Positions 14,330 to 38,853 of a stretch of 64,000 nucleotides of DNA are shown in pieces; within the stretch, counting starts at the first letter, position 1, and each line of letters opens with the position of its first letter. Source of the stretch: Sphaerosporella brunnea (taxonomy: Eukaryota > Ascomycota > Pezizomycetes > Pezizales > Pyronemataceae); contig VXIS01000173.1 in NCBI GenBank assembly GCA_008704415.1, forward strand, positions 34,539-98,538, given 5' to 3'. Below the pieces are notes generated by a model that did not search any database, had not been told where the DNA came from, and saw only the letters and a program-made list of their open reading frames with translations. The translations under genes and the position numbers were made by a program.

Positions 14330-15100
14330 GACCGACATCAGCGTTTCAATGTCCCCCGTGGAACTGTCCTCGAGGCGGCAGCGCATTTGAAGGGCACTTA
14401 ATTGTGGTATTTATCTGCAAACGTTTGGAATCAAATCATGTGCGCACGGCTACCGACAGCTATGTTACGGACTCTGCGGCTTCAGCGACCTCCTCCAGCT
14501 GTGGGTGTTGACGCGTGGACAAGCCGATCGGCGTGGACGACGACTAACCCGATCATCTGCGCAGGAATGAAGACGGGGTTGATCGTCACTTGTCGAATCA
14601 CCCACAACTGTGGCCTGGAAGTCAACATCGTCCTGCAAGGAATCGGCCACGCGTACCCCCTCCGCCGCATCGTTGACGTGATGCTCGGAGGGGGCGGCCA
14701 CTGCTTCTTCACGCCCAACACGACGGCGGCGTCCTGCCGTGACGACGACGACATCGACGTGCTCGCCCGAGGCTTTGGTAACACGGTCTTTTTGGACCGC
14801 AAGACATTCGACAAGAAATCGAAGTTGCCGTACCTTGGCTTGTTCGCTTCCACGCACTTGAGCTACGAGATCGATGGCGGCCCGGGCTGAAGGGCCTCAA
14901 CGACCTGCTGAACGCCACCACGCACCGCAAGCAGGGCTTCTTTGCGCTCGTGGAGGCGTCGCGGATCGACCATGCCGGCCACCTCCACGATATGCTAGCG
15001 TACAACGAGGCGCTGCTGGCGATGCGGCGGTGGGTCGAGTGGCACGAACCCGACAGCCCTACTATCCTCATCTCCACCGCTGAATCTAATTTTAGTGACG
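14330..15100 (+). pseudogene. Alkaline phosphatase (vacuolar PHO8-type) pseudogene, locus C
   Basis: Ordered pieces of a phosphatase are readable: VPRGTVLEAAAHLKG (about 14350-14395); an intron-like segment; the nucleophile motif ATDSYVTDSAASATSSSCG in another frame (about 14450-14508); GMKTGLIVTCRITH (about 14565-14605); PLRRIVDVMLGGGGHCFFTP; VFLDRKTFDKKSKLPYLGLF; a frameshift near 14885; FFALVEASRIDHAGHLHDML; and PTILISTAES. The family hydrolyses phosphomonoesters with a Ser nucleophile and two Zn plus Mg. Here the final metal-binding D-H-E motif is lost (AESNFSDD), the order of the active-site exon is duplicated relative to the normal gene, and the frame is broken. It is a non-functional copy. 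Confidence 0.75.
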
Positions 15101-15334
15101 ACCAGGCTTGTGGCAATGCCGAGTGGCGTGGCGGCGATCCTTTTTGTTTTAAATCATTGCCATTGCGCGTTCTATCGCTAGCTACGTACAAACAGGGCCC
15201 AGCCGCAACCGACTATGCCTGCACCTATTAATCCATCCCGTCATCCCGGCAAGCTGAGTGTCTGTGGGCATTCCCCGTCGCCCGCCCGTCCCCGGAAAGT
15301 ATTTCCTCCGATCCCGCCCGCGCTTAAAGCACCC

Positions 15335-16010
15335 CTACGGAGACGTGCCTCCGACTTCCGTTCCTGTCCCCGAACGTATTCGGTTCGCCCTACTCCTCCC
15401 CGTTTTCAGGTCCGGGGTCGTCCTCCTCTTCATCAGGCACCACCGGGGAGGACACCTGGCCGCCCCGGTATCCTTCAAGAACTGTAGGAGCGCCGGCGTA
15501 AACGTGGGCTCCGCCAGAAACCGCGCCATATTCCAGGTTTTCACCCGAGAGTGTGTTTTGGCTTCCTTCTTGACCGCCGCCTCCAGGTCCTTCCGCTCCA
15601 TCCTCCACCGAGGGCAGTGCCTAAACAGGTGCTCGCGAGACTCCGGGTATCGCTTACACCATCGGCATGTGTCGTCGGTCACCCCGCCGATGTGGCGTTT
15701 CTTACAATAGGTGCTGATGAGTGCATGGCCGGTCCGCAGCTGCATCAGGCGACTGGCTATCCCCTTGGGGGCGCTGAACAGCGCTGGGTCTGGTTGGATC
15801 TTTTTGGGCGGCACGTAGGAGTTGCCCTTCGTGGTCCGCTTCTGGGTCCACCGCCTTGACGCCGCCCATTTCGCATGGGTGAGATGTCTCTTGATGAATG
15901 CCAGGGAGGTGAACGAATCCCTGACCCTGTCGTCCTTTCCTGGGAGGTGGCGTCTGGCAGCTTCCTTCGCCGCCTTGTCCGCCGCCGTGGCGGCGATCCG
16001 GCGATGGGGG
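15335..16010 (-). pseudogene. LINE relic: end of RNase H and C-terminal zinc knuckle
   Basis: The minus-strand frame reads AADKAAKEAARRHLPG, the exit of a LINE RNase H, then KGIASRLMQLRTGHALI and CRWCKRYPESREHLFRHCPR, the CCHC-like ending of Tad-type LINEs. It is open for 269 codons but joins unrelated repeat sequence beyond about 16010. No 3' UTR palindrome was found downstream, so it appears truncated at both ends. Its sequence differs clearly from the relics at 4860 and 46400, so it represents another LINE lineage. Confidence 0.72.
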
Positions 16011-16290: not shown

Positions 16291-16860
16291 ATCCAGCAAC
16301 TATCCAACGCCGGCTAACCCCCGGACCAGTAGTGATGAAGAGCTAAGCTCTCCTCTTTCTGCTCCTCCTCCTCCTCGCAGCCTTTCCAGCCGTCTTCGAC
16401 GACTGCAGAAACTCTCTTACCCACGTTTGATTCTGGCGGATCCTCTTGCAACGCCAGCTAACCCCCGGGCTGGTGGTGACGAAGAGCCAAGCTGCTCCTC
16501 CTCCGCCTTCTCCTTCTCCTTCTCCTTCTCCTTCTCCTTCTCCTTCTCCTTCTCCTTCTCCTTCTCCTTCTCCTTCTCCTCCTCCTCGTGACCTTTCCAT
16601 CCGTCTTCGGCGGCTGCAGAAACCTACTTACCCACGTCTGATTCCACCGGATCGAGCAACCCTCCAACGCCAGCTAACCTCCGGGCGAGTGCTGATGAAG
16701 AGCCAAGCTCCTCCGCCCCCCCCCCCCTCCTGCTTCTCCCTGAAACCGTCTTCGGCGGCTGCACAAACTCGCCTACTCCGGCGGATCGTCTCGCCAACGA
16801 GAAAGAGCAGAAAAGAATTATTATTACCGCCCCAAGGTGCATGCAACCCACCTGCCGCGC
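16290..16860 (-). repeat. (GGA)n-bearing module, four units, with (TTCTCC)n microsatellite
   Basis: Units contain CTGCAGAAAC...TTACCCACG, GCGGATC or CCGGATC, CAACGCCAGCTAACC and GATGAAGAGCCAAGCTCC. A pure (CTTCTC)n run occupies about 16505-16588 on this strand. The reverse complement recurs at 25390-25860, 35230-35340, 38400-38590 and 38850-38930. Open frames here are low-complexity artefacts. Confidence 0.65.
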
Positions 16861-17478
16861 GATGAAGTGACCCACCTCGCTGTTCTCCAAATCCCCCGCT
16901 GCTGACTCCCGATCCGTACCGCGTAACATCTGTGGCGGTGCGCGAGCCAGTAGCAGCTCAAACGCGCGGCCGGTGTCAGCCTGCGCAAGCGCCCCCCTCG
17001 GTGGGCTTGCCGATTGATTCCACACGCGGCGGCGGCGAAAAGGTTCCCTTCAAAAAGCGCGTGGAGCCGGCGGCGCCGGTGTAAGCTTTCCAGCGGGCCG
17101 GGGGGTGACGGGTCGCACCAGGCCGTCGAGATCGACCCGAGGGCGCGGCGACCGCAAAGTTTCGCGAAACTCCCAGCAACGCGTTTTAAGCGAGCCGCGA
17201 TTTTGCAATTCGTCGTTTACTGCCAATGTCGGCGATTTCCGCGCATGTCGCAGCGGAGAAAGCGCGCCGCATCCGTCGCGAAGCCTTTTCCGGTATCGCG
17301 TCCACGTGTCGCCGGTTGTCTTGGCCTCCATTCTATGTGAATGCTCCCTCCAGGCAGCGATGCGTTGTGGTGGCAGTGCAGCGCGGGGTCCATCGCTTGA
17401 TTCTCGTATCCCCGGCACGCGCAGCACGCCATTGGCCGGCACTCCCGAGCGCTTCGTGGGGGTGTTGCGTTGGTGGCA
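16861..17478. other. Upstream region of the Pro-rich gene
   Basis: GC-rich, with no recognisable gene. The end nearest the gene probably holds its promoter. Confidence 0.4.
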
Positions 17479-21045: not shown

Positions 21046-22040
21046 GCAGGTCAACCGGCAGCCAAAATCTCAAAACGCGCGACCATGACCGGAAACGGCG
21101 CCGCAACACACTCGGCAGTCAAATTTCACTCGGCTCCCGGTGCACGTTGCTATTTTTCACCACACCTCATGCCTTTTCCTACTACTCTTATCGCGCCGCC
21201 GAGTCTCTTGCTTGCGGTACGGTACATGTCGCCGTGGAGAGCAGACTGGTTTGATACTGATACAGCTCTCCCCTCCTCCGTCTACTACCACGCCGACCGT
21301 CTTCCCGGCTTTCCGCACTGACTTTCCCTTCGGCCGTAGCGACCTGAGTGCAACACACGTAGCACCGCCCCCCTATCCAGATCGATTGAGAGCCGTCGTA
21401 CATCCCAATGCCTTTTCTGTGTGAGAGAACCCTATCCCTATTTCCATACTGCAAAAGCTTATTCCTTATTCCGGCGTGGCTGTCAGGCGGGTGGATTTGC
21501 CCGCCCACCGGCCCATCAGCTATCCTCCTAAAAACTCAAGACTCAAAACGAAGCGGTCCCGCTCGGTATCCATACGAGAATGGCCGTTGCCGTTGTCCGC
21601 ACGTTCCACAGGACCAGTGTGCGTAGAGCGTTGGAAATCCCCTTGCCGCCCTGTGGATTGATGACGATATCCTCCCCCCTCCCCTCTCTTTCATCGCCAC
21701 TAGCCCGGCGTTGGAGAGCGCTGATGGCAAATTCGGAGAGCGCTGACGGCAAATTCGGAGACTTGAAGTCCTCCTCCCCCCCGCGATGCGTGGTTACTGG
21801 CGCGCCATTTGGGAGTACCCATGGTGGATGACTCCAGAATTTGGCTTCGGGGAGCTGCATGCTCGGTTGATTTGGGGGCGAGCATGGAAGCTGGCTGAGC
21901 GAACAGGCAGGCGGTTTTGTTTTGATCATGTTGTATGAGGGGAGTTCGGACTGGCGGGGTGTTGCCGGTACTTCTCGGGAGGTGCTTCACCTTCTTTTTC
22001 TGTGAGGTTTCGATGGTTTCGCTCTGTGGTTTCTCTCTAG
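21046..22040 (+). repeat. About 1-kb dispersed repeat, copy 1 (inverted relative to 30240-30920)
   Basis: Matches, in reverse complement, two blocks of 30240-30920: GTCAACCGGCAGCC...CGTGCACGTTGCTA (21048-21160 against 30812-30918) and GACTTGAAGTCCTCCTCCCC...GGTTTCGCTCTGTGGTTTCT (21768-22035 against 30262-30556). The middle is not shared. It overlaps a small inverted pair GGGGAGTTCGGACTGGCGGG (21937) and its inverse at 22170-22192, itself a candidate 256-bp miniature element also represented near 41206. Confidence 0.65.
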
Positions 22041-22194
22041 CGGAAACGAAAAAAAAAAATTAAAAAAAAAAAGAAAATCAACACTTTTCCTGGACGAGTT
22101 CAGACCAAAACCAGGTTTTTCGCGGGGAGGGAGGGGGGGGGGGGGTTTCGTCGAAACCATACCACCAAAACCCGCCAGTCTGAACTCCCCTAAT

Positions 22195-22795
22195 CTTCGG
22201 CCGCTTGCGGCCATGACATAAATAACAGGAAGAGACTATGCTACCCCTTCGGCGACGGCGGCTCCTCGAAAGGAAAGGACTAAGGAAAGCACACCAGAAG
22301 ATAAGCGCACCAAGGAAACCCGTCATAGACAGAGGTTCTCAAAACACGACGTCCTTGTCCGGCCAGGCCCAAACTTTGGTGGTGTCAAGGAAATCCATCA
22401 CCGCCTGCGTACACCTGTCATCTGCAGGTAAAGCGGAGGTGGCCGTAGCTGGCCACCGCTTCTGCCCCTTCTCTCTCGTAGCATCCAGTCCGGTGAAGGT
22501 ATGGACCGGTAGGGGCCTTGCACACTCGCAGTTGGTGGAAGCGAGACGCGAGGGCCTTGCGGGTCTTACTGGCGATGGGGTCACCCTTCTTCCTGCGTCT
22601 GCGGTACCCTTTGGGTTTGCAATGCGTGATCAGCCATGCCTCCTTGTCGTGTGCGTTGGCCTCGCTGACTCCAGGTCCGGGTGCGTCGTGTGGTAGGCGC
22701 TTCAGGGCGGCCGGTGCATCGGTGAAGAGGTGGACGCGTCCTGAACAGGCAGGCGTTTGGATGGTGGTCGAGCCGGCACTCAAGCGGGCCGTCGA
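22195..22795 (-). pseudogene. LINE relic: RNase H to 3' UTR
   Basis: Read on the minus strand: VHLFTDAPAALKRLPHDAPG (RNase H strand with the catalytic-Asp context), KEAWLITHCKPKGYRRRRKK, ASRFHQLRVCKAPTGPYLHR, and then a 3' UTR ending in the palindrome GGCCGCAAGCGGCC at about 22199-22212. The zinc knuckle is broken. The upstream side is fused at about 22795 to alkaline phosphatase sequence, so the LINE may have inserted into the phosphatase 3' end. Confidence 0.68.
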
Positions 22796-23265
22796 AATCG
22801 ACGGTGCGGCCACCGCACTCGTGATCGGCGGAGGAAATCAGGATAGCAGGGCTGCCGACTCCATGCGCATCGACGCGCTGCCGCATCGCCAGCATCGGTC
22901 GCCTCGTCGTACCTAGGATATCGTGAAGTGGTGGGTCTTTGGCGCGGCAGCTTCGCGAGCGCAAGGAAATCCTGCTTGCGGTCCAGCAGATCTCTAGGGC
23001 CCTTGATTGCCATCTCCTTCAGCCCGCGTCGCAGCTCACGTGCCCCCAGGTACGGCAACTTCGCTTTCTTGTCGAATGTCTTGCGGTCCGAAAAGACCGT
23101 GCAACCCTCCGGGGAGCGTGTCGCAGTAATCGTCATTGCGGCAGAACCCCGCGGTCGTGTTGGGCGTGAAGAGCCAGCGCCGCCGAGCGTTACGTCAACA
23201 GTGTGGTGGAGGGATTCGAGATGTGACGATCGATCAACCCCGTTTTCATTCCTGCGCACACGGTT
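22795..23265 (-). pseudogene. Alkaline phosphatase pseudogene, locus A (3' exons)
   Basis: On the minus strand: GMKTGLI remnant at about 23250, TVDVTLGGAGSS, CTVFSDRKTFDKKAKLPYLG, GLKEMAIKGPRDLLDRKQDF, then DILGT...AMRQRVDAHG and PAILISSADHECGGRTVDF. The last motif keeps the family's D-H-E metal site. Several frameshifts separate these blocks, and the VEGSRIDHAGH segment is deleted. It lies directly downstream, in the same orientation, of the exon array at 23266-25265. Confidence 0.72.
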
Positions 23266-25265
23266 TGGTTCCAAACGTTTGCCGATGCCACAAGTACCCT
23301 TCAGATGCACCGCCGCCTTGGGGACAGTTCCGCAGAGGACATAGTCGTCATCCTCGCCGATTGCCTTTTGCGCCCGCAGCTGGAGGCGGCCGTCGAAGCC
23401 GCAGAGTCCGTAATGTGGCTGTCGGTAGCCCTGGTGCGCGCATGGTTTGGTTCCAAACGTTTGCCGATGCCACAAGTCCCTTTCAGATGCACCGCCGCCT
23501 CGGGGCCAGTTCCGCAGAGGACCTAATCGCCGTCCACGCCGATTGCCTTTTTCACGCGTCAACACCCCCAGCTGCAGAGGGTGGTCGAAGCTTTCGGGGG
23601 TGCTTCGCAGGCTAGGAGTCGTTGAACCACATGGGCGAAATCGATCAGACGTTGATCACGCTCCTCCTGAGGCAAGCCTTCCGGGGGTGCTTGGGCACCA
23701 GTCTCAATGGCTGTCCAGAGATCGGAGGGAATCTGGAGGTGTGGAGTTCAAGAAAAAGCGTATTTAATGGATGAAATTGCGAACCTCGCAGATTGGAAAG
23801 AAGTGAACCGAGTTTTTCCTGGGCCCCTCAATCTTGCCCACGATCAGCCTCCAGCTTGCCAGTCACGGCGAAGACGTATCTTAGCTGCCGCTCCCCAGTG
23901 GAACCTAGCATGCACACTCGTCGGAAAATAGGCCGCCAAAGTGACGAAATGGAACGATGGAAAGTTCCCAACGACAATCGAGCGGGATATATGGCGGATC
24001 TCGTGCTGTATCGGTTCGGCAACGATTGTCCCGGTCACGCGCATAGTCCGTAACGTGGCCGTCGGTAGCCCTGGTGCGCACATGGTTTGGTTCGAAGCAT
24101 TTGCCAATGCCACGATTACCGTTCAGATGCGCCGCCGCCTCGGGGGCAGGCATAGTCGTCGTCCACGTCGATCGCCTTTTCCACGCGTCAACACCGGCAG
24201 CTGCACAGTCAGTAATGTAGCCCTGGTATGGTTCCAAACGATTGCAGATGCCACAAGTACCCTTCAGATGCACCACGTCCTCACCGATTGCCTTTTCCAC
24301 GCGTCAACACCCGCAGCTAGAGGCGGCCGCGGAAGCCGCAGTGTCCGTAACGTGGCTGTCGGTAGCCTTGGTGCGCGCATGGTTTGGTTCCAAACGTTTG
24401 CAGATGCCACAAGTACCTTTCAGATGCACCACGTCCTCGGGGACAGTTCTGCAGAGGACATAGTCGTCGTCCATGCCGATTGCGTCAAAGCCTGCAACTG
24501 CAGACGGTGGTCGAAGCCGCAGAGTCCATAACGTAGCTGTCGGTAGCCCTGGGATGGTTCCAAACGTTTGTAGATGCCACAAGTACCCTTCAGATGCACC
24601 GCCGCTTCGGGGACAGTTGCGCAGAGGACATAATCGTCATCCACACCGATTGCCTTAAAGCTCGTAGCTGTAGACGGTGGTCGAAGCCGCAGAGTCCGTA
24701 ACGTGGCTGTCGTTAGCCCTGGGGTGCACATGGTTTGGTTCCAAACGCCGCCTGGAGGACAGTTCCGCAGAGGACATAGTCGTCGTCCACGCCGATTGCC
24801 TTTTCCACGTCAACACCCGCAGCTGCAGGCGGTCGCCGAAGCTGCAGAGTCCGTCACGTAGCTTGGTATGGTTCCAAACGTTTGTAGATGCCACAAGTAA
24901 GTACCCTTCAGATGCACCACGTCCTCGCCGATTGCCTGTTCCACGTGAAACACCCGCAGCTGCAGGCAGTGGTCGAAGCTGCACAGTTCGTAACGTAGCT
25001 GTCGGTAGCCCTGGTGTGCACATGGTTTGGTGCCAAACGCCGCCTCGAGGTCAGTTGCGCAGGGGACGTAGTCGACGTCCACGCCGATTGCCTTTTGCAC
25101 GTCAACTCCCGCAGCTGCAGGCGGCGGTCGAAGCTGCACAGTTCGTAACGTAGCTGTTGGTAGCCCTGGTATGGTCCCAAACGTTTGCCGATGCCACAAG
25201 TACCCTCCAGACGCGCCGCCGCCTCGGGGACAGTTCCGCAGAGGATATAATCATCGTCCTCGCCG
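23266..25265 (-). repeat. Tandem array of the phosphatase active-site exon plus intron, array A (about 10 units)
   Basis: About ten copies of the anchor GGTTCCAAACGTTTGC(A/C)GATG occur between 23266 and 25175, spaced about 130-185 bp. A non-array insertion sits at about 23560-24030. Read on the minus strand, each unit holds an exon fragment (ATDSYVTDSAAS...CSCG, then AIGVDDDYVLCGTVPEAAVH and LKG) followed by GTACTTGTGGCATCTGCAAA...CCATGTGCGCA, which is the phosphatase intron with its GT donor. The last unit runs into the acceptor and next phosphatase exon at 23265. Units differ by indels and many are out of frame. Confidence 0.75.
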
Positions 25266-25389
25266 ATCGCTTGGGACGTGCCGCCGCGGATGTTGTGGGG
25301 AGTCGACGGCGGGGGGACTTGGAGGCATCGGGGAGAATGGCGAGGTGGAACACTTCGTCGCGCGGCAGCTGGGGTGGAGCCTTAAACCA

Positions 25390-25860
25390 GTTGGATCCGC
25401 CGGGGAAGCGAGTTTGTGCAATCACCGAGTACGGTTGCGAGGAGGAGGAGGAGCGGGGGAGCCGTAGGGGAATGAGGAGGAGGACGAGAAGAAGGAGGTG
25501 GTGGTGGTGGAGGAGAAGCGTGGCTCTTCTTCACCACCTGCCCGGAGGTTGGCTGACGCTGGAGAGTTGCTCGATCCGCCGGAATCAGACGCGGGAACGC
25601 AAGTTTGTGCAGCCGCCGAAGACGGTTGCGAGGAGGAGGAGGAGGAGGAGGAGGAGGAGGAGGAGGAGGAGGAGGAGGAGGAGGAGGAGGAGGAGGAGGA
25701 GGAGGAGTTGCTGGTGGAGGAGTTGCTGGTGGAGGAGGCAGAAGTGCTGGAGTAGCTTGGCTATTCAAGCCCGGGGACTCGCTGAGCTTGGACCTTGAGG
25801 TGATCCGCCGGAGTAAGCGAGTTTGCGCAACCATCAAAGACGGCTAGAAAGGTTGCAACG
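25390..25860 (+). repeat. (GGA)n-bearing module with long GAG microsatellite
   Basis: Three units of GATCCGCCGGA...AAGCGAGTTTGTGCA...GACGGTTGCGAGGAGGAGG. A pure (GAG)n run of about 75 bp lies at 25632-25706. This is the reverse complement of the 16290-16860 module. It follows the 5' flank of array A. The poly-Glu, poly-Gly and poly-Pro frames over it are not genes. Confidence 0.7.
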
Positions 25861-26236
25861 AGGAGGAGGAGGACGAGTAGAGACGCTTGGCTCCTCATCA
25901 CCACCAGTCCGACGGGTAGCTGTGGTTGCAAGAGGATCCGCCGGCACCAGACGCGGGTACGCGGGTCTGTGCAGCCGTCGAAGGCGGCTGGGAAGGTCGC
26001 GAGGATCGCAGCTCATGGAACAAGGCGAGGAGCGAGTGGGGGGAACCGCCACAAACGCCTTGCCAGCCCAGCCCCGACAGCCACCGCCGCAAACCGCATC
26101 GCGCGGTACAAATGCCGCGAGTGCTCCGCAGTGAACGCCACGCCCGTGGCTGAGGATCCCCAGCGTCGCGATGGCCAGGCCAGCACCAGCGGCAGATTGG
26201 CTTCCTGCGTACGTATGCCCCGTCCTCAAGGTTTCC
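25840..26236 (+). repeat. Duplicated segment, copy 1 (pair with 38436-38853)
   Basis: Nearly collinear with 38436-38853 from GGTTGCAACGAGGAGG through GGTTGCAAGAGGATC, CGCCACAAACGCCTTGCCAG, GATGGCCAGGCCAGCACCAG to CGTCCTCAAGGTTTC. The small differences include a short insertion in the other copy. It ends about 120 bp before the TATA box of the 26474 gene. Confidence 0.8.
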
Positions 26237-26357
26237 TGTCCGCGTCTGCTGGATTTCAATCTCCGCCGCCAGATAGCGCAAAGTTCTCCAAACTGTAACC
26301 TACCCGTCCGACCGACCGGCCACCTTTCCGTATCGCAGACTGCCCTCAGGTTTTGCC

Positions 26358-26364
26358 TATAAAA
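26358..26364 (+). promoter_or_regulatory. TATA box of the 26474 gene
   Basis: TATAAAA 110 bp before the ATG at 26474, followed by a pyrimidine-rich leader. Confidence 0.55.
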
Positions 26365-26473
26365 CCCCCCTCTCCCGCCCCCCTCGACTGCAGCCCCCAG
26401 CTTCCTCACGCAGCCGATTTCAGCTGCCCCCCTTCTCCTCACGCAGCTTCCCCTTCTTGCCCCCACTTCCGAG

Positions 26474-27004
26474 ATGGACCTCTCGCCCCCCAATCCTCCT
26501 CCTCCTCCTCCTCTTCCCTGCGTCCTCTGCGGGAGAGAACCCGACCATCCCGCCTTTCCCGACGCCCGGTTTGGCGGCGCAGCCAAAGCCGTCGGACCCG
26601 CACGCCGCGACTTTCGGAGCCCGCCCTCGGCCTCGCACCTCGCCCTGCCCGCGGCGCAGGGCCCGGGACAGCCGCGCAGCGAGGAGCTGGCGGCCACCCT
26701 GGCCGCCGCGGTCAAGCACCTGACGCGCGCGGTCGAGGCGCTCGTCAAGGAAATCGTCGGGCTGAGAGCGGAGCACAAGGCCGCGCACGACCGGCTGCGC
26801 AGCGCTACGAGCTTCACGCCGGTGTTGCCGCCGATCCCGGAGACGGAGACGCCGGCACCGCCGATCCCGGAGACGCCGGCACCGCCGAGGCGCCGAGAGG
26901 ATTCCGCCGAGTCTTGCACTTACCTCCCCTGCGCGTACCTGCTCGAGCCGCCCGAGATGTCCAGTTCGGCCAGCCGCAGACGGGCCTACAGGGACATGTG
27001 GTAG
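26474..27004 (+). CDS. Small Pro-rich/coiled-coil protein
   Basis: A single exon of 176 residues starts MDLSPPNPPPPPPLPCVLCG. The N-terminus is Pro-rich with one C-x2-C pair (residues 16-19). Residues about 70-110 (ELAATLAAAVKHLTRAVEAL and on to VGLRAEHKAAHDRL) form a strong amphipathic coiled coil. Next come two Pro/Glu repeats (PIPETETPAPP, PIPETPAPP), and the tail ends RRRAYRDMW. A TATA box upstream and AATAAA at 27197 frame it as a transcription unit. No family is recognised; an oligomerising nuclear or regulatory protein would fit but is speculation. Its distal upstream region is duplicated at 38.4 kb without the gene. Confidence 0.6.
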   Translation: MDLSPPNPPPPPPLPCVLCGREPDHPAFPDARFGGAAKAVGPARRDFRSPPSASHLALPAAQGPGQPRSEELAATLAAAVKHLTRAVEALVKEIVGLRAEHKAAHDRLRSATSFTPVLPPIPETETPAPPIPETPAPPRRREDSAESCTYLPCAYLLEPPEMSSSASRRRAYRDMW

Positions 27005-27196
27005 GAGAGCTTGCAGAAGATGGAAAGGAGGATGCGGAAAGCGCGGGGGAGAAGATGGTGGCGGTTCGAAGGTTCCTTTCGTTTGTCTCTATTGTTTGTG
27101 CTCCAGGCGGAGGAGGAGCGGTGCCCCGTCACCGTCTTCCCCCTCCTGGGCCTCCACTATTGTCACTTAATGCCTGGCAGCTTACGTTTTGCGCTG

Positions 27197-27202
27197 AATA
27201 AA
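27197..27202 (+). terminator. Poly(A) signal of the 26474 gene
   Basis: AATAAA about 195 bp after the stop at 27004, followed by A-rich sequence. Confidence 0.45.
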
Positions 27203-27433
27203 CTTGATTACAAAAACCAAAAATGCTAACCACACCACCTTAACCTTCCTTCACAACGGGGAAGCAACATGCCGAGTGAAACCCCCCGTTCGGAGTCCAC
27301 CAGCCATTGGCATCGTAGACTCCAACTTGCCGCCACTCGTCACTCTATATATCCAGCGCGCCCTCAGGAGAAACACCAGCACAGCCAAAGACCCAAGCAA
27401 GAAGACTAAGGAAGACAGCAAAAAGCAAGCATA

Positions 27434-28051
27434 TCAACAGCTCGTCGCCAGCTCCTTGAACACATCCTCCACCACCCGGCCCAACCTGCTGACGATCTCC
27501 TCCACATCGCGCTTCTGAACGATGTACGGCGGCGCCAGCCAGATCTGATCGCCCCGCCAACCATCCGCCGCGCCGGTGGCCGGGAAAATACTGATATCGT
27601 AGCCCTTCTTCAAGCCTCGACTGTGCAGCCGCTTCGCCACCTGCAGCTCCGGATCGAGCGGCTCCTTGGTCGCCTTGTCCGCCACGAACTCGATGCCCCA
27701 GAACAACCCGCGGCCGCGGATGTCGCCGACGTTCGGATGCCCGCCGAGCCGCTCCTTCAGCAGCGCTTCCATGTGCTTCCCCATGCGGCGCACATTCCCC
27801 AGCAGCTTCTCCTCGCGGATGATGCGCTGCACCTCCAGCGCCGCGGCGCACGACAGCGCGTGCGTCTGGTACGTCTGCCCGTGCGCGAAGTACCCGGACC
27901 CCTTTTTCAGCGCGGACACGACGCGGTCGTTGACCAGCAGCGCCGAGATCACGCCGTAGCCGCTCGCGAGCCCCTTGCCGACCGCCTGGATGTCGGGCAC
28001 GACGCCTTCCTGCTCCCACGCGTGCATGGTGCCCGTGCGGCCCATGCCGCA

Positions 28052-28091
<40 letters not shown>

Positions 28092-28945
28092 CAGACGGCC
28101 TTCACGGCTTCGAAGTAGCCCGGAACCGCGGTCACGCAGCCGAGAGCCTGGCCTCGAAGTCTCAACAACACGGAACTATATTCCCCCCGGGAGATAGGAA
28201 AATGCTTACTGTTCCCACCAGCGGCTCCGCGATGAACCCGCACACCGTCTCCGGCCCCAGCCGTCGGAACTCGGCCTCCAGCTCGGCCGCGAGCCGCGCC
28301 ACGTACGCCGCCGTGCTCTCGCCCGCCAGCAACCCGCGGTACGCGTTGCAGGCGGAAACGCGCGTCACGTTGGTCGGGAGCAGTGGCTCGAAGAGCTGTT
28401 TCCGCACCTTGAAGTCTCCCACCGCCAACGCGCCCAGCGTGCACCCGTGCCACGATCCTTCGCGAGCGATAAAGTGCGACCTTGTAGGTTGCGGCGGCGA
28501 CAACTCCAGGAAGTACTGTCTCGCGAGCTTCATGGCCGCTTCGACAGCTTCGGAGCCTGTTGTAGGAACCACCCCCCCGTTATCAGCATCATTAATCCTC
28601 CCCCCACCCCGACAGGGAACAAAAAAACATACCCGACCCAACCAGCACCGCCCTCGCCATCTTCCCCTCCGTCGACTCCACCAAAAAGTCGGCCAACCGC
28701 TCCGCCACGGTGGTCTTGTAGAAGCCAGGATGGACGTAAGCGATTTCGTCGAGCTGCGCCGCGATCGCGGCTTTGACGCGCGCGTTCCCGTGGCCGATGG
28801 CGGTGACCCCGGCGCCGCTGGTGGCGTCGAGGATCTGCTGCCCGCTCTCGAGGGCGAGGTACAGGCCATGGCCGGACTTGACGGTGAGGGCGGTGGAGAC
28901 GTCCGCGTGCTTGTACAGCAGGGCGCTTTCTGTCGGCGCCGGCAT
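27434..28945 (-). CDS. Class III PLP-dependent aminotransferase
   Basis: Exons 28945-28633, 28556-28210 and 28147-27434 give 457 residues, the usual size. The introns are 76 bp (28632-28557) and 62 bp (28209-28148), both GT-AG and frame-keeping. Visible landmarks: VGSGSEAVEAAMKLARQYF across the first junction (cofactor phosphate site), REGSWHGCTLGALAVGD, AEPLVG|TALGC across the second junction, LLIFDEVICGMGRTG with the PLP-pyridine Asp (D249), and AVGKGLASGYG with the Schiff-base Lys (K278), then a C-terminal RGRGLFWGIEFVAD. The family moves amino groups from omega-amino or diamino donors to an oxo acid; the donor cannot be told from sequence. There is no targeting peptide, so it is probably cytosolic. 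The start ATG at 28945 follows an intergenic spacer shared with no divergent gene. All key residues are present, so it is probably functional. Confidence 0.92.
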
Positions 28946-30239
28946 TTCTGGAGAGAGGCGGGCGGGCGAGATTGTGGAAAGTCAACACATTCCGCGGGTT
29001 GGCGTCGCCTTTTTGTAACCTACTTCGTCGCTCGCTTCGAAAACGGGATACCGCGACCCAAGCAGGTCCTCGAATGCTGCCCATGGCGGATTGCCAGGTA
29101 CGTGTGCCCTCATGTGTTTTTTTTCAGCTGCAACGAGAACTCGCTCCGTGTCTAGCGCATGGCGAACGGAACTGGAAATATCTCACAAGACTAGGCACGT
29201 GCAGTAGCTGTTTGGGATGCGCGATATTCCGACGTAGGCATGCGGGGTACTCCTCGACTCGAGTGTTATTGGCCCCCTTCCCCCCCACGCTGACGGGCCA
29301 AGATCCTGACAAGTTGAACCTGAGAAATGGCCCCAAAACGGCCACGCGCGGGAAATTGTCATGACGGCTCTTTGACCGAACCAATCGTCGAAAAGAGTGG
29401 ACTGGATTGGATAGGATACACAAAACGAAGCTCCCTTCCACGGAAATTATGGCCAACCGCGATGATCGTCGTGCCATGTTTCCTTCCGGTCGTACGAAAG
29501 TGGGGCCAGTGGGGGGGGGGGGGACAGTCAAACTCTGCGCACACCCACGTCGCGTATCTGGCAGTTATGGTCTGAAGGCAGCTGAACTTGGTGGGGCGGG
29601 CGTCAGCAATTCCTGCATCTGTATCTAGATGCGTCGACGCCATGCGGCTGGGCATCTGCAAAGCTTTTTCTTGCCACCCAGGCTCGCAGGGATTCCGATG
29701 CAGTCATCATGTCTTACAGGAAGCTGCTCGCCAATCACCGATCTCTGCGCTCCACTCATATTGCGCGGCGCGGCCCGGGAGATCACCCTACTGGCCGGCC
29801 GTGGAGTCTCTGCGCGAGAGGGATTTACGGTCGGTTGCTCTTTCAGCTGAACCTGTCTGTTTCAAAAAAAAATGAACTGCTCAGCGCAAACCCGCCTGAA
29901 GTGAAACGCGCTGGACTGCCGGATAAAGCGGCGGCGGCGTCGGTGAATGCTCCATTGCGGTCCTGAGCTGCGGAGACATGCGACTTCATGCATCCAGTAC
30001 TCGGAAGCGACGATTGGAAAACTAAGGGTTGATGCATGTTGTAGAATGGTAGTACGGAGTGACGGATCTGTTTCGCGATGTTTTTTTTTTTTTTTTTTCG
30101 CACTTTTTGCAACCGGAGTTAGGATGTTCGCGCGACGTCCCCTCGCACACCGGAAACTTGATCCTCGCGATACGACGCCTTACCAAAATGCCCACCACAT
30201 CGCGATACGTTCCGGATAGATGCAATGCGGAGGATGGAA
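28946..30239. other. Intergenic region, no gene seen
   Basis: Holds a 12-G run (29512-29523) and a T run (30079-30099) but no domain-bearing open frame. The promoter of the aminotransferase must lie in its first few hundred bases. Confidence 0.45.
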
Positions 30240-30920
30240 GAATTTTTTTTGTTTCCGCAAGAGAGAAACCACAGAGCGAAACCATCGAAACCTCACAAAA
30301 AAAAAAAAAGGTGAAGCACCTCCCAAGAACTACCGGCAAAAACTCGCCAGTCCGAACTCCCCTCATACAACATGATCAAAACAAAACCGCCTGCCTGTTC
30401 GCTCAGCCAGCTTCGATGCTCGCCCCCCCAAATCAACCGAGCATGCAGCTCTCCGAAGCCACATTCTGGAGTCATCCGACCATGGGTACTCCTAAATGGC
30501 GCGCCAGCAACAACGCATCGCCGGGCGGGGGGGAGGAGGACTTCAAGTCTCCGCATTTGCCATCACCACACTAAGCCACATCTTCATGAACGTAGTAGCA
30601 CGTTCAGCATCCATACAGGCAAGGGCGGGAGCGCTGAGAGCAAAAAGCACTACTGCATTGTAGAGCGCTTCTGCTTTGGGTGCTTGATGCTTTTTTTTGC
30701 TCTGATTTCCGACGCGGGGACGACGATCTCCGCCCATCTCCACCAACCGGGGCCGTGCGACGACGAGGTTTATGTGCCTGCACTACCGCATAAACGCGCA
30801 GGCAAGAGACTCGACGGCGCGAAAAGAGTAGCAACGTGCACCGGGAGCCGAGTGAAATTTGACTGCCGGAGCGTCACGGTCGCGCGTGTTGAGAGCTCGG
30901 CTGCCGGTTGACTTGCATAC
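30240..30920 (-). repeat. About 1-kb dispersed repeat, copy 2
   Basis: The reverse complement of parts of 21046-22040. The unique middle (30560-30780) replaces the corresponding part of copy 1. The A run at 30299-30310 corresponds to the T/A-rich tract at the other copy's edge. Confidence 0.65.
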
Positions 30921-31677
30921 CACTGCATAGAATCTGCTAATCAGGCACCACCTCACGCCTTTTCCTACGACTCTTTTCGCGCCTCCGAGTCTCTTGCTTG
31001 CGAGTTTATTCGGTAAGCGACTTCATACATCCAGTACTCGGAAGCGATAATCGGAAAGCTGCAGGGCCCTGAATCGGCGGGGCGAGGCCTGGAGGTTAGT
31101 ACAGAGCGAGAGCGCATAAAAAGCCAAGACGTCATGTCGACGTCGGTGAAGGCGGAATTCCAAAAGAGGAGTATGCCCGTCTGGGAGTACCGTTCTGATG
31201 CCGTAAGTGCAACCTGCAGGTTTCGATGCATTCGGTTTTGTCTGCATGCGCATAGCGAAACTTCCCCCACCTTCTGCAACTCCGGTTTTTGCGCGGTTTC
31301 CAATCGTTCGGAACTGATCCCAATCCGGGCGCACCCCCGAGAGCTCGCCCATCACGTCGTCAATCACCCAAACGACTGTGCACACACCAAGGCCCGCCCC
31401 CGGAGCGATCTCTCCGTACCCCCCACTCGAGCCATCGAGACCGCGCGGGTCGGTACTTAAACGAACATTGGACTGCGTCGTTGATCCACTGTCGATTGGT
31501 CTATTCCATCGCAAGGCTCCCTGTGGCACCCTCCCCGTCTATATCATCGCGGCAACGAAGCTGGCCTGGCCTTCCCCCTCCGACAGTTTAGGCCTCAGAG
31601 AAGGTGAGGTTACCCCTCCGCCGAGTCTCAACCCCCCACAAGCTAACGGCACCAGTACCCCACTCGAAACATTCGCC
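30921..31677. other. Upstream region of the GMC gene
   Basis: A short block at 30930-30998 (CCTCACGCCTTTTCCTACGA) repeats 21165-21215. No gene is seen. The GMC promoter should be here; no clear TATA box was found. Confidence 0.4.
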
Positions 31678-33397
31678 ATGGAGAAATTCCTTGCCTACGA
31701 TGCCGACTACGTGCGCAAGCTCTGCCAAATCGGCGTCTACGACTACGTGATCGTGGGCAGCGGCTTCGGCGGCGGCATACTCGCGGACCAGCTCGTCAAG
31801 CAGAAGAAAAAGGTGCTGCTGATCGAGCGTGGCGGCGCGACCTTCACCACGCATCTCTGCAACACCGCGCGGCCCGACTTCGCGCGCGGCACGAACAACT
31901 CGGTCGAGGGCAACGAAACCGTGTACAACACCATCAAGGAGCGGGTGCAGACGGCCGAGGGCTCGGACCCGTACGTCGGCGGCCCGGTGTACTGCCTTGG
32001 TGGCCGGTCCAGCGTGTGGGGACTGTGGATCCCCCGCGTCAACAAGGCCTCGCTCGACCAGTACTTCCCCGCTGATGTATCGCACGAGCTCCAAACCTAC
32101 GCGTATTCCCGGGCCTTCGACCTCCTGACCAACTACTCCCAGTCGGAGGTTTACCCGATCGGTGACATACACCTGAACATCAAGGACCTGGACGAGGCGA
32201 AGAAGAACCTCACGGCGCTCCTGCAGCCTATCATCGCTCCAGACGAAGAGGTCGAAATCGGACCGATCGCCACGGAACTCAATTCCCCGGCTGTGTACCG
32301 CTTCCCGATGGGTGGATACAGCACCGTCACCCCGCTGCTCAATAGGATCTATGCGAGAGATCAGTATCTGACGGTGCTGATGGACACCGAGGTCATTCAG
32401 TTCGACTACGATCAGCCAGATGCGGAGGGGGAGAGGTATGTACGCCCGTTTGGGCACAGGTTTACGACCACACAGCTGACGCGCTGTATACAGGCAAGTC
32501 AAGGGCTTGACCGTCCGCACCAAGGGCAGCGGGCAGGTGCACTGGTTGAACACCGCGAAAGCCACAGTGATTCTTTCCGCCGGCACCATCGGCACGCCAA
32601 CGATTGCCCTCAACAGCGGACTGCAATTCATCAACCCCCTGGTCGGCAAAGGCCTGATGGACCACGAGATCTACTACGTCCGAATCGACATCGAGCGAAC
32701 CGACGACGACCCCACCGAACCGCTGAACCTGCAATGCGTGGTCAAGCTCGGCACGGAGCTCGCGCTGCTGACGGTGACCATCAACGCCAACTTCTTCCTG
32801 GCGGGCAGCAGCACCATCCAAACCAGCCAATACTGGTCGGCGGACGGCCACCTCCTCAACCCCGACCACAAGGCGCTCGCGGAGAAAAAATTCGACACCA
32901 TCGCCATCCTCGTGCAGTTCGGCGCCGAGCTGGACGACAACAACGAAGTGCTGGGCCTGCCCACGCCGGACCCTGTGATCCGCGTGCGCCGCCCGATCTC
33001 GCACAACGGCCTGCTGCAGAAGGAGATGCAGGCGGTCGCCACCGATATCCGCAACGGCATCGTGAAGGACATCATCCACCCGGGCTTCGATTTCGGCGAG
33101 AAGGGAGCCGGCGCCCCGGCAGCCCGGTGGCATCCGTTCGCCGAGGACGTGCCGTCGTTCACGTTGCTAGGCTTTGGCGTGTTCTCTCACGAGACTGGGA
33201 CGATGCGCATGAAGGGTCCTGACAACAAGCCCGGCGTTGTCGATACCAATCTTAAGGTCGACGGGTTCAAGGACCTGTACGTGTGCGACTTGTCGGTGCT
33301 GCCATACAGTCCCCCCGCAAACCCGACGTTGACGTTGACGGCGCTGACGTTGCGGTTGGCGGAGAACCTGTTGGGGGAAAATGTGGAAGTTCGCTGA
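31678..33397 (+). CDS. GMC-family FAD oxidoreductase (pyranose-oxidase-like)
   Basis: Exons 31678-32435 and 32494-33397 give 553 residues. The 58-bp intron (GTATGT...TACAG) restores frame across an Arg codon. The N-terminal Rossmann fold reads YDYVIVGSGFGGGILA (about 21-36) with the ribose-binding Glu in VLLIERGG (E50). Next are VYCLGGRSSVWGLWIPRV and the C-terminal GMC block FGVFSHETGTMRMKG...SPPANPTLTLTAL, placing the catalytic pair at H485 and N529. The family oxidises sugars or alcohols and passes electrons to O2 or quinones. The length and C-terminal layout resemble pyranose 2-oxidases, but the place of their FAD-linking His motif is occupied by GRSSVWG, so FAD is probably non-covalent. 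There is no signal peptide, so it is intracellular. The ATG context (GCCATGG) is strong. The substrate is unknown. Confidence 0.9.
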
Positions 33398-33757
33398 GCT
33401 GGTATTTTCCAGCTTGACACACCGTGGGGGTATGGGATGGTCGGCTTTTGTACCAGTCGGGGTTTCTATGTTTTTTCATACATTCATTCATTCAGTCTCT
33501 GTGCTTCGTTTTTCAAGAATGTACGTACCTCTGCAATGAAGGATGGGCGAAACTTGAAGTCCTCCCCTTTCTTTGAACTACACAATGAGAAAAAGGAAAA
33601 GGTAAAGCAAGAACTTGATGTACACACCCAAGCAGGTAAACGAGTCGGATGCGTGGATTGCAAGCAACCACATTCCTTACCTTGGCCTTACCGTTTACTT
33701 GATTGACGGGTTACGATGGCAAATACAGAACCAACTACTTGTGTTTCGACAATTACG
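33398..33757. other. 3' flank of the GMC gene
   Basis: No gene or repeat is supported; it likely holds the GMC 3' UTR. Confidence 0.4.
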
Positions 33758-35161
33758 TGTAGGACGGGTTGTTGTGGGACAAGCCCAGGAGGGTAACCTC
33801 GAGCCTCAACCTCGAGCCTCAACCTCGAGCCTCAACCTCGAGCCTCAACCTCGAGCCTCAACCTCGAGCATTTAGCTAGACCTTCTCTCCATCTCAATTA
33901 GACATCACATTCGATACACATCAACCTGGTAGCAGCACTTTACACCACTACATTCGCCGCGCTTCTCGCGACGTCTGGCAGCTGTGCGACGATACAACGA
34001 GACCTGAGACGATGAGCGAAACCACGATGGACGACTACCTCGACAACCCCTGAGCGACGAGAGAGGAGCAGCAGCGGCAACAAGAATCGCTTGCACGACG
34101 CCTGTACAAAGAGCGACAGCGAGCGCACGAAGCGGCAATGCGCGAGCAGCAGAGCCAACCGAACCTGAACCCGAACCCGAACCTGAACCCAAACCAGTCT
34201 ATTGATGAGCTGGGGACTCGCTTTGCAGGGCTTGGCTACCCGACCCAGCAGGAGGTGAACGAGCAACGCAGGGAGCAAGAGCAGCGCTGGGAGCAAGAAC
34301 GACTTCGCCAAGATGCATTGCGTGCGCAGCAGGAAACTGCGGATTATTGGCATCGTCAGATGGGAGGACAAGGCGGCTTCGGGAGCCGCGGATTCGGAGG
34401 CGGCAGATTCGGAAATGGCGGATTCGGAGGAGGTGGCTTCGGAAACGGCGGAGTTGGAGGTGGTGGCTGGGGACCTCGAACGGACCTATACTCGCGTCCA
34501 ATGCGTTTTCCAAACACCCAACCGTCAATCAACATCACCGAATCCCTTGTCAAGCAATACATGAAGAAGAACGATGTTCCAAGGCTCGACGGCGAGATCA
34601 GTTTGGAGAACCTTCGCAAGTGGCACATGGATGTGGAACAATTCGCAAAAATCACCAGCTTGGGCGAGAACGCGACAATCAACCTGGTCCGAATGGTTTC
34701 AGGACGCAGTATGGAGAGACTTTGGAATTGACTACCTTCCGCAAGACCAGTACCCATTTAGTTGGGAGGACCTCAAAGCCAAGATGACGGAGGTGTTTGC
34801 ATCAGCATTCTCAAGATCACACGTATGGGCACAACTGGTGGAACTCAAGAGAAAGAAAGATTATGACGGCACCAAGGCCTACATCGCTCAATTCCTGGAA
34901 CTGGCAAAGCTGGTCGGTCAGACACCGTACAATGTCTACCATGGCAATCGCGCATGGGAAATCATTTACGGCTGAAATTGGGCTGGCAGAGGAAGCAGAG
35001 GGTCTGGTATGATGAATGGGCAGGAGAGGAGGACGTTTGACCATGTTTCAAAAAGGAGCGGAAGACTTTTTGTGGAGGGAGATGGATGTAGGACGTACCT
35101 AGGGTTGTTGTGGGACAAGCCCGGAGGGTAACCTCGAGCCTCAACATTGAGCATTTAGCTA
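33758..35161 (+). mobile_element. Gag-only LTR-like retroelement
   Basis: Direct repeats TGTAGGACG...GGTTGTTGTGGGACAAGCCC...GAGCATTTAGCTA lie at 33758-33878 and 35087-35161 and flank a gag-like gene. The left repeat is longer because CTCGAGCCTCAAC is tandemly repeated five to six times (33798-33868), whereas the right repeat has one copy. No pol sequence or clear target duplication is visible. A non-autonomous LTR element is the best reading. Confidence 0.6.
34012..34975 (+). pseudogene. Ty3/gypsy-type gag fragment with stop and frameshift
   Basis: From ATG 34012 the frame reads MSETTMDDYLDNP, meets TGA at 34051 (a CGA-to-TGA change would explain it), and continues through a Gln/Glu/Arg-rich coiled region, a Gly-rich stretch, and LRKWHMDVEQFAKITSLGEN. 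Near 34690-34735 the frame shifts; the next frame reads WFQDAVWRDFGIDYLPQDQY, then TMSWEDLKAK-like FSWEDLKAKMTEVFASAFSR and KAYIAQFLELAKLVG. This order matches the capsid region of retrotransposon Gag. No zinc knuckle, protease or polymerase follows, and it ends at 34975. Broken. Confidence 0.65.
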
Positions 35162-35590
35162 CCGTATCTTCCCGGCTTGAAGCAGCCCGGGCGAGGTGGG
35201 ACACTTTCATCGCGCAGCAGCTGGGGTTGAGCCTTGAGGCGGTTGGCAAGAGGATCTCTGTCGGAATCAGACGTGGGTAAGCGGGTTTCTGCAGGCGCCG
35301 AGGATGGCTGAAAAGGTTGCGAGGAGGAGGAGGAGGAGATGTGCATAGTAGGGCTGCTGGCTCCGTGCGCGTCGACCCACTGCCGCATCGCCAGCATCGC
35401 CTCGATATACGCCAGGATATCGTGAAGGGTCGTTGACGTGACCGGCATGGGCGATCCGCGACGCCTCCACGAGCGCAAGGAAATCCTACTTGCGGTGCGT
35501 GGTCGCGTCCGGGCTTTACGTCAACGATGCGGCGGAGGGGGTTCAGGTGGGTGATTCGAGAAGTGACGATCAACCCCGTCTTCAGTCCTG
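35155..35590 (-). pseudogene. Alkaline phosphatase pseudogene, locus B, with GGA module at its 3' side
   Basis: On the minus strand: GLKTGLIVTSRITHLNPLRR and IVDV (about 35590-35515), an internal deletion, then VEASRIAHAGHVNDP (about 35460-35420), DILAYIEAMLAMRQWVDAHG in another frame, and PTMHIS. Downstream (35340-35230) lies one (GGA)n module unit. Frames are broken and most of the metal-site region is gone. The upstream side joins array B directly through a perfect intron-acceptor junction (CATGTGCGCAG|GACTGAAG at about 35590). Confidence 0.7.
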
Positions 35591-38250
35591 CGCACATGGT
35601 TTGGTTCCAAACGTTTGCAGATGCCACAAGCAAGTACCCTTCAGATGCACCATGTCCTCGCCGATCGCCATTTCCACGTGAAACACCCGCATCTGCAGAC
35701 GGTGGTCGAAGCTGCAGAGTCCGCCAGGTAGCTGCCGGTAGCCCTGGTATGGTCCCAAACGTTTGCAGATACCATAAGTAAGTACCCTTCAGATGCACCA
35801 CGTCCTTGCCGATTGCCTTTTCCACGTCAACGCCCGCAGTTGCAGGAGGTGGTCGAAGCTGCAAAGTCCGTCACGTAGCTTGGTTTGGTTCCAAACGTTT
35901 GCAGATGTCACAAGTAAGTACCCTTCAGATGCGCCGCCGCCTCAGGGACAGACATAGTCGTCGTCCACGCCGATCGCCTTTTCCATGCTTCAACACCTGC
36001 AGCTGCAGAGTCAGTATTGTAGCCCTGGTTTGGTTCCAAACGTTTGCAGATGCCACAAGTACCCTTCAGATGTGCCGCCGCCTCGGGGACAGACATAGTC
36101 GTCGTCCACGCCGATCGCCTTTTCCATGCTTCAACACCTGCAGCTGCAGAGTCAGTATTGTAGCCCTGGTTTGGTTCCAAACGTTTGCAGATGCCACAAG
36201 TACCCTTCAGATGTGCCGCCGCCTCGGGGACAGACATAGTCGTCGTCCACGCCGATCGCCTTTTCCATGCGTCAACATCCGCAGCTGCACAGTCAGTATT
36301 GTAGCCCTGGTTTGGTCCCAAACGTTTGCAGATGCCACAAGTACCCTTCAGATGCACCACGTCCTCGCCGATTGCCTTTTCCACGTCAACTGCCGGCGGT
36401 GGTCGAAGCTGCAGAGTCCGTCACGTAGCTGTCGGTAGCCCTGGTATGGTCCCAAACGGTTGCAGCCACCAACAGTAAGTCGCCGTCCACGCCGATCGCC
36501 TTTTCCACGTCAATGTCCGCAGCTGCAGACGGTGGTCGAAGCTGCAGAGTCAGTAATGTAGCCCTGGTTTGGTTCCAAACGATTGCAGTAAGTGCCCTTC
36601 AGATGCACCACGTCCTCGCCGATTGCCTTTTGCACGTCAACTCCTGCAGCTGCCGGCGGTGGTTGAAGCTGCACAGTTCGTCACGTAGCTTGGTTTGATT
36701 CCAAACGTTTGCAGACGCCACAAGTACCCTTCAGACGCGCCGCCGCCTCGGGGACACATGTCGTCCACGTCGATCGCCTTTTCCATGCGTTAAAGCTCGT
36801 CGCTGCAGGTGGTCGCCGAAGCTGCAGAGTCAGCAATGTAGCCACGGTTTGGTTCCAAACGATTGCAGATACCATCAGTAAGTACCCTTCAGATGCACCA
36901 CGTCCTCTCCGGTTGCCTTTTGCACGTCAACGCCCGCAGCTGCAGACGGTAGTCGAAGCTGCAGAGTCCGTCAAGTAGTTGTCGCTAGCCCTGGTATGGT
37001 CCCAAACGTTTGCAGACGCCACAAGTATCCTTCATATGCACCACCGCCTCGGGGACAGACATAGTCGTCGTCCATGTCGATTGCCTTGTCATGCGTCAAC
37101 TCCCGCAGCTGCCGGCGGTGGTTGAAGCTGCAACGTCCGTCACGTAGCTGTCGGTAGCCCTGGTATTGTCCCAAATGTTTGCAGATACCCCAAGTACCCT
37201 TCAGCCGCGCCGCCGCCTCCGGGACAGACATAGTCGTCGTCCACGCCGATCGCCTTTTCCACGTCAATACCCACAGCTACAGGCGGCCGTCGAAGCTGCA
37301 GCATCCGTCACGTAGCTGTCGGTAGCTCTGGTGTGCACATGGTTTGGTTTCAAACGCCGCCTCGAGGTCAGTTGCGCAGGGGACATAGTCGTCGTCCACG
37401 CCGATTGCCTTTTTCACGCGTCAACACCCGCAGTTGCAGACGGTGGTCGAAGCTGCAGAGTCAGTAATGTAGCCCTGGTTTGGTTCCAAACGTTTGCAAC
37501 CACCAACAGTAAGTCGTCGTCCACGCCGATTGCCTTTTGCACGTCAACTCCCGCAGCTGCAGACGGTGGTCGAAGCTGCAGAGTCAGTAATGTAGCCCTG
37601 GTTTGGTTCCAAACGTTTGCAACCACCAACAGTAAGTCGTCGTTCACGCCGATTGCGTCAACGCCGCATCTGCCGGCGGTGGTCGAAGCTGCACAGTTCG
37701 TAAACGTCGCTGTCGGTAGCCCTGGTATGGTCCCAAACGTTTACAGATACCCCAAGTAGCCTTCAGATGCGCCGCCGCGTCAGGGACAGACATAGTCGTC
37801 GTCCACGTCGATCGCCTTTTCCACGCGTCAACACCCGCAGCTGCAGAGTCCGTAACGTAGCTTGGTATGGTCCCAAACGTTTGTAGATGCCACAAGTACG
37901 TACCCTCCAGATGCACCACGTCCTTGCCGATTGCCTTTTCCACGCGTCAACGCCCGCAGCTGGAGGCGGTGGTCGAAGCTGCACAGTTCGTAACGTAGCT
38001 GTCGGTAGCCCTGGTGTGGTTTCAAACGTTTGCAGACGCCACAAGTACCCCTCGCCGATTGCCTTCTCCACGCGTCAACTCCCGCACCTGCCGGCGGTGG
38101 TCGAAGCCGCAGAGTCCGTAACGTGGCTGTCGGTAGCCCTGGTTCGGTTCCAAACGTTTGCAGCCACCAACAGTAAGTACCCTCCCGACGCGCCGCCGCC
38201 GCCGCCTCGGGGACAGTTGCGCAGGGGACTTCGTCGTCGTCCTGGCCGAT
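35591..38250 (-). repeat. Tandem array of the phosphatase active-site exon plus intron, array B (about 19 units)
   Basis: About nineteen GGTT(T/C)CAAACG / GGTCCCAAACG anchors lie between 35606 and 38145. Spacing is mostly 120-185 bp; three adjacent units near 36029-36313 are 141-142 bp and almost identical. On the minus strand these three give an open frame with a 47-residue period containing PEAAAHLKGTCGICKRLEPN. Several units have lost the AIGVDDD part and carry ACCAACAGTAAG instead of ATGCCACAAG. The far (minus 5') flank at 38200-38400 is shared with array A at 25210-25390, so the two arrays descend from one locus. Confidence 0.75.
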
Positions 38251-38435
38251 CGCTCGGGACGCGCCGCCGCCGCCGCCGCGGGTGTTACGCTGTATCGTGG
38301 GGAGTCGATGGCGGGGGGTTTGCAGGCGATGGGAAGAATGTCGAGGTGGCACACTTCGTCGCGTAGTAGCTGGGATTGAGCCTGGAAACGGTTGGTTGGT
38401 TGGCAAGAGGATCCACCGGAGTAAGCGAGTTTGCG

Positions 38436-38853
38436 CGGAGCTGGAAAGGCTGCAACGAGGAGGAGGAGGAGCACGAGGAGAAGCTTGGCTTCTCGTCACC
38501 ACCGGTCCGACGCGTAGCTGTGGTTGCAAGAGGATCTGCCGGAACCAGACGCGGGTACGCGGGTCTGTGCAGCCGTCGAAGGCGGCTGGGCAGGTCGCTC
38601 AGAGGAGGCAGAGGCTTGCAGCTCAGGCAACAAGGCGAGGAGCGAGTGGGGGGAACCGCCACAAACGCCTTGCCAGCCCAGCCCCGACACCCACCGACGC
38701 AAACCGCATCGCGCGGTGCAAATGCCCCGAGCTCCGCAGTGAACGCCACGCCCGTGGATGAAGCAGCTGCGATCGATGGCCAGGCCAGCACCAGCGGCAG
38801 ATTGGCTTCCTGCGTACGTATGCCCCCCCCCCCCCCTCCCGTCCTCAAGGTTT
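38436..38853 (+). repeat. Duplicated segment, copy 2 (pair with 25840-26236)
   Basis: See copy 1. Here a 14-16 bp C run has grown at 38823-38837 just before the CGTCCTCAAGGTTTC end. No copy of the 26474 gene follows; the sequence changes to a GGA module. Confidence 0.8.

Follow-up and report, generated by a model that had tools for sequence, protein, structure and literature searches.

How can part of a protein-coding gene, splice donor and intron included, become the unit of a tandem repeat? The question is raised by a 64-kb stretch of the Sphaerosporella brunnea genome (the window; the right-hand 64 kb of contig C83, which has 98,538 bases), which holds two arrays, b and c, whose units read on the minus strand as a piece of an alkaline phosphatase exon followed by an intron. 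A sequence-only reading had described satellite arrays of about 10 and 19 units here, and both arrays are real, at 23252–25290 and 35588–38265. Based on the window and on searches of the assembly (50.6 Mb in 640 contigs), they are very probably two local minisatellites that expanded within broken copies of an alkaline phosphatase gene of Pezizomycete type, from a unit born at the 8-mer TGTGCGCA, and that later decayed, with no function indicated.

An exon-plus-intron unit in two arrays

Array b has 10 exon-plus-intron units, of which the first is truncated at AIG and the ninth (b9) is interrupted by an insertion of about 450 bp (23593–24039) whose antisense strand looks gag-like by eye. Array c has 19, the first again truncated at AIG. 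The unit is 123–196 bp long, and the two arrays hold 29 units in all. Read on the minus strand, a unit passes through RTRATDSYVTDSAAS, CSCG, IGVDDDY, CGTV and EAAAHLKG into a phase 1 intron of about 46–50 nt that extends from GTACTT to TGTGCGCA. The proposal that the unit comes from gene structure, with the nucleophile exon ahead of an intron, holds for both arrays, as does the further proposal that they run on into the gene: exon, donor and intron follow in this order, and a CAG acceptor then leads into the following exon of the phosphatase. At this site the sequence of intact relatives, HLEG-FKTGL, is uninterrupted, while the end of array c reads HLKG, then the intervening stretch, then LKTGLIVTSRITH, and the more decayed end of array b reads MKTGLI; the intervening stretch is therefore an intron. 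Reconstructed from these sequences, the parent gene would have had an exon A (GLVRTRATDSYVTDSAAS to HLKG), a phase 1 intron of about 50 nt and an exon B (MKTGL onward).

Matches to the unit were found in the assembly on contigs C83 and C187 only (genome match counts throughout are lower bounds, and tandem arrays in the assembly may be collapsed), and the 20-mer core of the unit has 9 exact copies, all inside the arrays. Of the two properties that define satellite DNA, a tandem array of related units is seen here, with 10 and 19 units, and high copy number with wide distribution is not, in so far as such counts can tell. The term satellite in its genome-wide sense is thus not supported, and the arrays are better called local gene-derived minisatellites in pseudogenes. 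A functional role was considered for the palindrome GTTTGGTTCCAAAC, whose 20-mer is the one with 9 exact copies in the arrays, but was dropped, as the intron does not stand out against the exon in conservation; the units were cut at this palindrome, so any count of it is biased.

Relation to alkaline phosphatase genes

In tblastn searches with a Pyronema phosphatase (P0001), the best scores were 45.8 bits for array b and 54.7 bits for array c, against maxima of 24.6 and 25.8 bits in 200 dinucleotide shuffles of each. The alkaline phosphatase identity of the arrays is beyond chance. Placement in this family had been set beforehand as one test of the sequence-only reading, and protein searches do place the broken gene there, closest to Pezizomycete phosphatases (59% identity to Pyronema and Trichophaea, 56% to Geopyxis). 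With the Pfam profile PF00245 (alkaline phosphatase; cut-off 24.4 bits), exon A of the copy on C187 scored 34.8 bits alone and 32.1 bits in the genome scan, above the cut-off. Two pieces of a third copy in the window, copy a, fell slightly below it (22.6 and 24.2 bits) and reached 41.6 bits with their in-frame neighbours. Arrays b and c were absent from the profile matches in the genome scan; both matched P0001.

An intact PHO8-type phosphatase is encoded on contig C235, and its best match with an organism name is a Pyronema omphalodes protein (81%). Alignment of all units to such a gene had been suggested as a check. The C235 gene cannot reveal the parent: it is a different paralogue, without an intron at the site of the array intron.

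Probable birth of the unit

The 8-mer TGTGCGCA occurs at two places, in exon A and at the 3′ end of the intron, and these two sites bound the unit, which in its fullest form, that of C187, measures 196 nt. In C187 the 8-mer is present in the unduplicated 5′ exon (CTTGTGCGCACCAGG), where the exon reads CTTGTGCGCACCAGGG. At the intron end, the sequence up to the junction is CCATGTGCGCAG in array c and CCGTGTGCGCAG in array b, each followed by GA. Agreement of 8 given bases by chance has a probability of about 1.7e-5, a value calculated after the fact and uncorrected for the number of sites looked at. The birth junction is recognizable in 5 of 27 scored units and is also kept by b9, the 5′ part of which was cut off for this count. 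At the junction, 11 nt between two CCA triplets are missing in 9 units, and 21–22 nt are missing in 12. The unit probably arose by tandem duplication at short homology and was probably multiplied by unequal exchange. In this scheme, misalignment or repair at TGTGCGCA would have given rise to the first duplicate in tandem, and the number of units would then have grown as copies exchanged unequally.

Probable exchange and spread among units

Among the 26 units compared, mean identity is nearly uniform: 84.5% within b, 84.4% within c and 84.3% between the arrays. Nine of the 15 deletion classes counted are common to both arrays (a sixteenth, produced by the cutting of b9, was left out), from which it follows that many variants are older than the duplication of the locus. 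The rearranged locus as a whole was probably copied at the DNA level after these variants existed, in agreement with the intron and 3′ flank that b and c have in common. Four of 16 pairs of disjoint internal deletion classes failed the four-gamete test, as would be expected if units had exchanged sequence. Local expansions are clear for c15–c17, which are 97–98% alike, and for c6 and c7 (96%). Repeat-induced point mutation was considered as the cause of decay and rejected: C-to-T plus G-to-A changes number 129 and the reverse transitions 85, with no clear excess in rates per available base (5.8% versus 5.4%, all dinucleotide contexts taken together).

Coding constraint

The copies afterwards decayed without detectable coding constraint. 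Identity among the 26 units is 82.5, 84.0 and 84.2% at codon positions 1, 2 and 3, and 83.8% in the exon versus 85.8% in the intron; no codon-position signal of selection is apparent. Inspected by eye, none of the 26 units of b and c has the correct open frame from TDSAAS to HLKG, and five (b8, c4 and c15–c17) are open from xTD to HLK or HLN with the middle in another frame. Since no unit has an intact frame through the nucleophile motif, b and c are pseudogenes. The motifs VTDSAAS, CSCG and AIGVDDD, taken earlier as parts of one exon, are all present; they come from different frames and units, and none of the 26 units holds them all in one open frame. The C187 copy has an open frame, but its nucleophile motif reads T-D-P-A-A.

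Four copies and their inverted tails

Four loci are known, copies a, b and c on C83 and a fragment on C187. The third copy in the window (14349–15081), the C187 fragment and an inverted last exon beside each array go beyond what had been noticed before. In copy b, a degenerate exon B (MKTGL to DHECGG; 22779–23251, minus strand) joins the array through TGTGCGCAG; in copy c, exon B (35329–35587, minus strand) runs from LKTGLIVTSRITH to HIS with an internal deletion and joins through the same sequence. Copy a lies on the plus strand. At 14349–14546 it has the end of one unit, namely GTVLEAAAHLKG with the intron, and a partial second unit that reads from RTATDSYVTDSAAS to VDDD. Its exon B (14564–15081), which reads from GMKTGL to ILISTA and whose frame breaks near 14885, is the best preserved stretch of the broken gene. 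On C187, exon A is preceded by NDTITLPIDVMVIGLV, the original unduplicated 5′ side, and followed by part of a second unit.

Beside each array, on the opposite strand, lies a tail that is the last (C-terminal) exon of the phosphatase gene, internally repeated. The tail of copy b (25270–26010, plus strand) has about four repeats of its own and is followed by a flank common to b and c (26010–26221, plus strand); that of copy c (38266–38610, plus strand) is followed by the corresponding flank (38610–38826, plus strand), with 86% identity in the b/c alignment. A second inverted tail piece of copy c (35190–35339, plus strand) lies on the opposite side of exon B, and the tail repeats of copy a (16305–16900, minus strand) are likewise inverted relative to its exons. 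In C187 and c, tblastn matches the tail to P0001 within residues 427–511 on the opposite strand, with 45% identity over 62 columns and 39% over 59 columns with two stops, respectively. The b tail is recognized by its DNA similarity to the c tail and by a shuffle test (28.5 bits versus a maximum of 23.1; for c, 37.7 versus 28.5; 200 shuffles each).

The sequence beside the arrays had first been taken for an unrelated GGA-rich dispersed repeat, an idea dropped when tblastn showed the gene's own last exon. A genome search with the array flank gave at least 17 matches, of which 9 belong to the four loci; the other 8, elsewhere in the genome, all fall within the GGA run of the query. Remains of coding sequence resembling a reverse transcriptase (RT) element were noted by eye on the minus strand at 15300–16000, seemingly separating exon B of copy a from its tail.

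On the plus strand, the order in both b and c is exon B (reverse), array (reverse), tail (forward) and flank (forward), which is what inversion of the exon A–exon B segment within the gene would give.

Strength of the reading and its alternatives

Several observations weigh against growth of the arrays inside broken phosphatase copies by the route proposed. An undamaged parent gene was not found in the assembly, where the Pfam profile gave at least 3 matches and the Pyronema protein at least 13. On the minus strand, a stop-to-stop frame of 170 residues (35911–36420) runs through c15–c17, intron included. On a unit phylogeny, earlier suggested for timing the amplification, units of b and c are partly mixed but also cluster by array to some extent: the array labels require 7 changes (the minimum is 2, shuffled labels average 9.7, and 3 of 200 shuffles went this low), on a tree with 18 of 26 inner branches weak and bootstrap support unsettled. 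Given this incomplete mixing, some of the units arose, or were homogenized, within one array after the split. Flanking homology of at least 4 bp was found for only 2 of the 12 deletion classes with measurable flanks (the other three of the 15 begin at the unit's first base); short homology is therefore well seen for the birth of the unit and not for most later losses. The tail of b alone gave no protein match at an E value of 0.1 in tblastn, and the C187 tail gave no Pfam match. Finally, a simple inversion leaves unexplained both the second tail piece of c and the arrangement on C187, where exon B is followed by the tail and then by exon A units, so that further duplication or loss must be assumed.

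An alternative that we consider unlikely, although the best of those weighed, is that the arrays grew in a still working gene, in which the first donor was spliced to the last acceptor and the extra units were skipped, and that the copies died later. The splice sites speak for it. The final acceptor, which leads into exon B, shares the frame of the donor, and an in-frame AG before the xTD codon is lacking in 18 of 19 scored units, with one in c8 (19 of 27 units could be scored; the other 8 were unscorable). Internal acceptors out of frame argue against exon choice between units, which had been raised as a possible role and is further disfavored by the codon-position data, and are compatible with a skipped, growing intron. 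The C187 unit also keeps an open frame of 119 residues that scores 34.8 bits to PF00245 against the cut-off of 24.4. Against a live gene, the N-terminal part of the protein (P0001 residues 1–75) is unmatched at all four loci, in both b and c the first unit stops short at AIG, where it meets the inverted tail, and the searches of the assembly found no intact gene that carries an array. If the arrays nonetheless began in a live gene, splicing could have removed however many copies of exon plus intron there were as a single lengthening intron, and an exon could turn into a minisatellite free of cost before the death of its gene.

Capture of a phosphatase piece by a transposon that then spread it is a good deal less probable still. 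Four dispersed loci, with RT-like (15300–16000) and gag-like (34054–34990) sequence nearby, both recognized by eye, would fit such a history, but the matches lie on two contigs only and the ends differ among the four copies. No inverted repeat of at least 14 nt flanks b among the longest 25 of 40 pairs, 24 of which are GGA/TCC runs; around c there is a single such pair, which does not flank the module, as its arms lie in the array and in the tail region.

Least credible, with next to no chance of being right, is that the units are used as alternative exons or encode a new repeat protein by readthrough of the intron: c15 and c16 each measure 141 bp, which is a multiple of 3, the 170-residue frame covers the most alike units (c15–c17), Pcf11_C barely passes on the whole repeat (26.8 bits; cut-off 26.7) with no single stretch passing, and c8 has its one in-frame AG, but the other 18 scored units have no in-frame acceptor, there is no codon-position signal, the frame has no relative at an E value of 0.01 among 1973 candidates, and none of its 12 Pfam matches has a stretch that passes by itself, as expected of chance summed over repeats.

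Two local minisatellites in decayed phosphatase copies thus appear to be a useful fossil with no function indicated; the arrays do not point to a new one. They also call for caution in gene prediction, where phosphatase exons may be called at the arrays.

Other repeats in the window

A 32-bp minisatellite forms a pair of inverted arrays about 320 bp apart (52003–52272 and 52592–52953) and is also listed at 60656–61036. A similar inverted pair, about 280 bp apart, lies on contig C311 (40559–40922 and 41200–41550), which suggests a dispersed element carrying such arrays. A 119-bp sequence that resembles its own reverse complement (7084–7202), like a small hairpin mobile element, has a 97% identical copy at 11173–11291. 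An inverted repeat with 81-bp arms that are 100% identical (13394–13474 and 13765–13845) is perhaps a recent insertion, and two inverted copies of about 320 bp, 91% identical, lie at 21744–22055 and 30243–30565.

Comparison with known systems

Term searches of open-access papers found no fungal phosphatase-derived repeat. The earlier remark that no described satellite of such an origin was known to its author is not supported by the reports cited here. The CapA satellite of New World monkeys is reported to originate from an intron of NOS1AP (PMC8210747, PMC7210261). Like the arrays described here, it is a tandem repeat derived from gene-internal sequence, for which duplication and unequal crossing-over have been proposed; it differs in its unit of about 1,500 bp and its share of about 5% of the genome, whereas the present units are 123–196 bp long, include coding exon and number 29 in two arrays within pseudogenes. 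In the polymorphic mucin genes of Schistosoma mansoni, SmPoMuc, functional units of exon plus intron are likewise repeated head to tail, with up to about 20 genomic units per gene, and the family includes truncated genes and pseudogenes (PMC2576457). Those units are about 1 kb long, with a 27-bp exon expressed as 9-residue repeats, whereas ours are out of phase and decayed; the in-frame acceptor that splicing of units in an exon-repeat gene of this type would need is absent from all scored units save c8, with its one AG.

The amplified gene families of Drosophila Y chromosomes (PMC8794474) resemble our loci in that duplicated copies of genes carry deletions, often with short homology; they differ in that some genes are under selection and gene conversion, whereas here the repeated units are smaller than a gene and show no sign of selection. 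According to a review, satellite repeats could in theory arise from any random sequence, and the seeds that it names are ribosomal DNA spacers and transposons (PMC5615363). The origin of a tandem repeat is often hard to trace; here the parent gene family, both breakpoints and the 8-bp homology that joins them are still readable. With units of different age side by side, the locus offers a small test case for the start and spread of a minisatellite, one that appears to combine CapA-like and SmPoMuc-like features in pseudogenes and in which the birth of the repeat can still be read.

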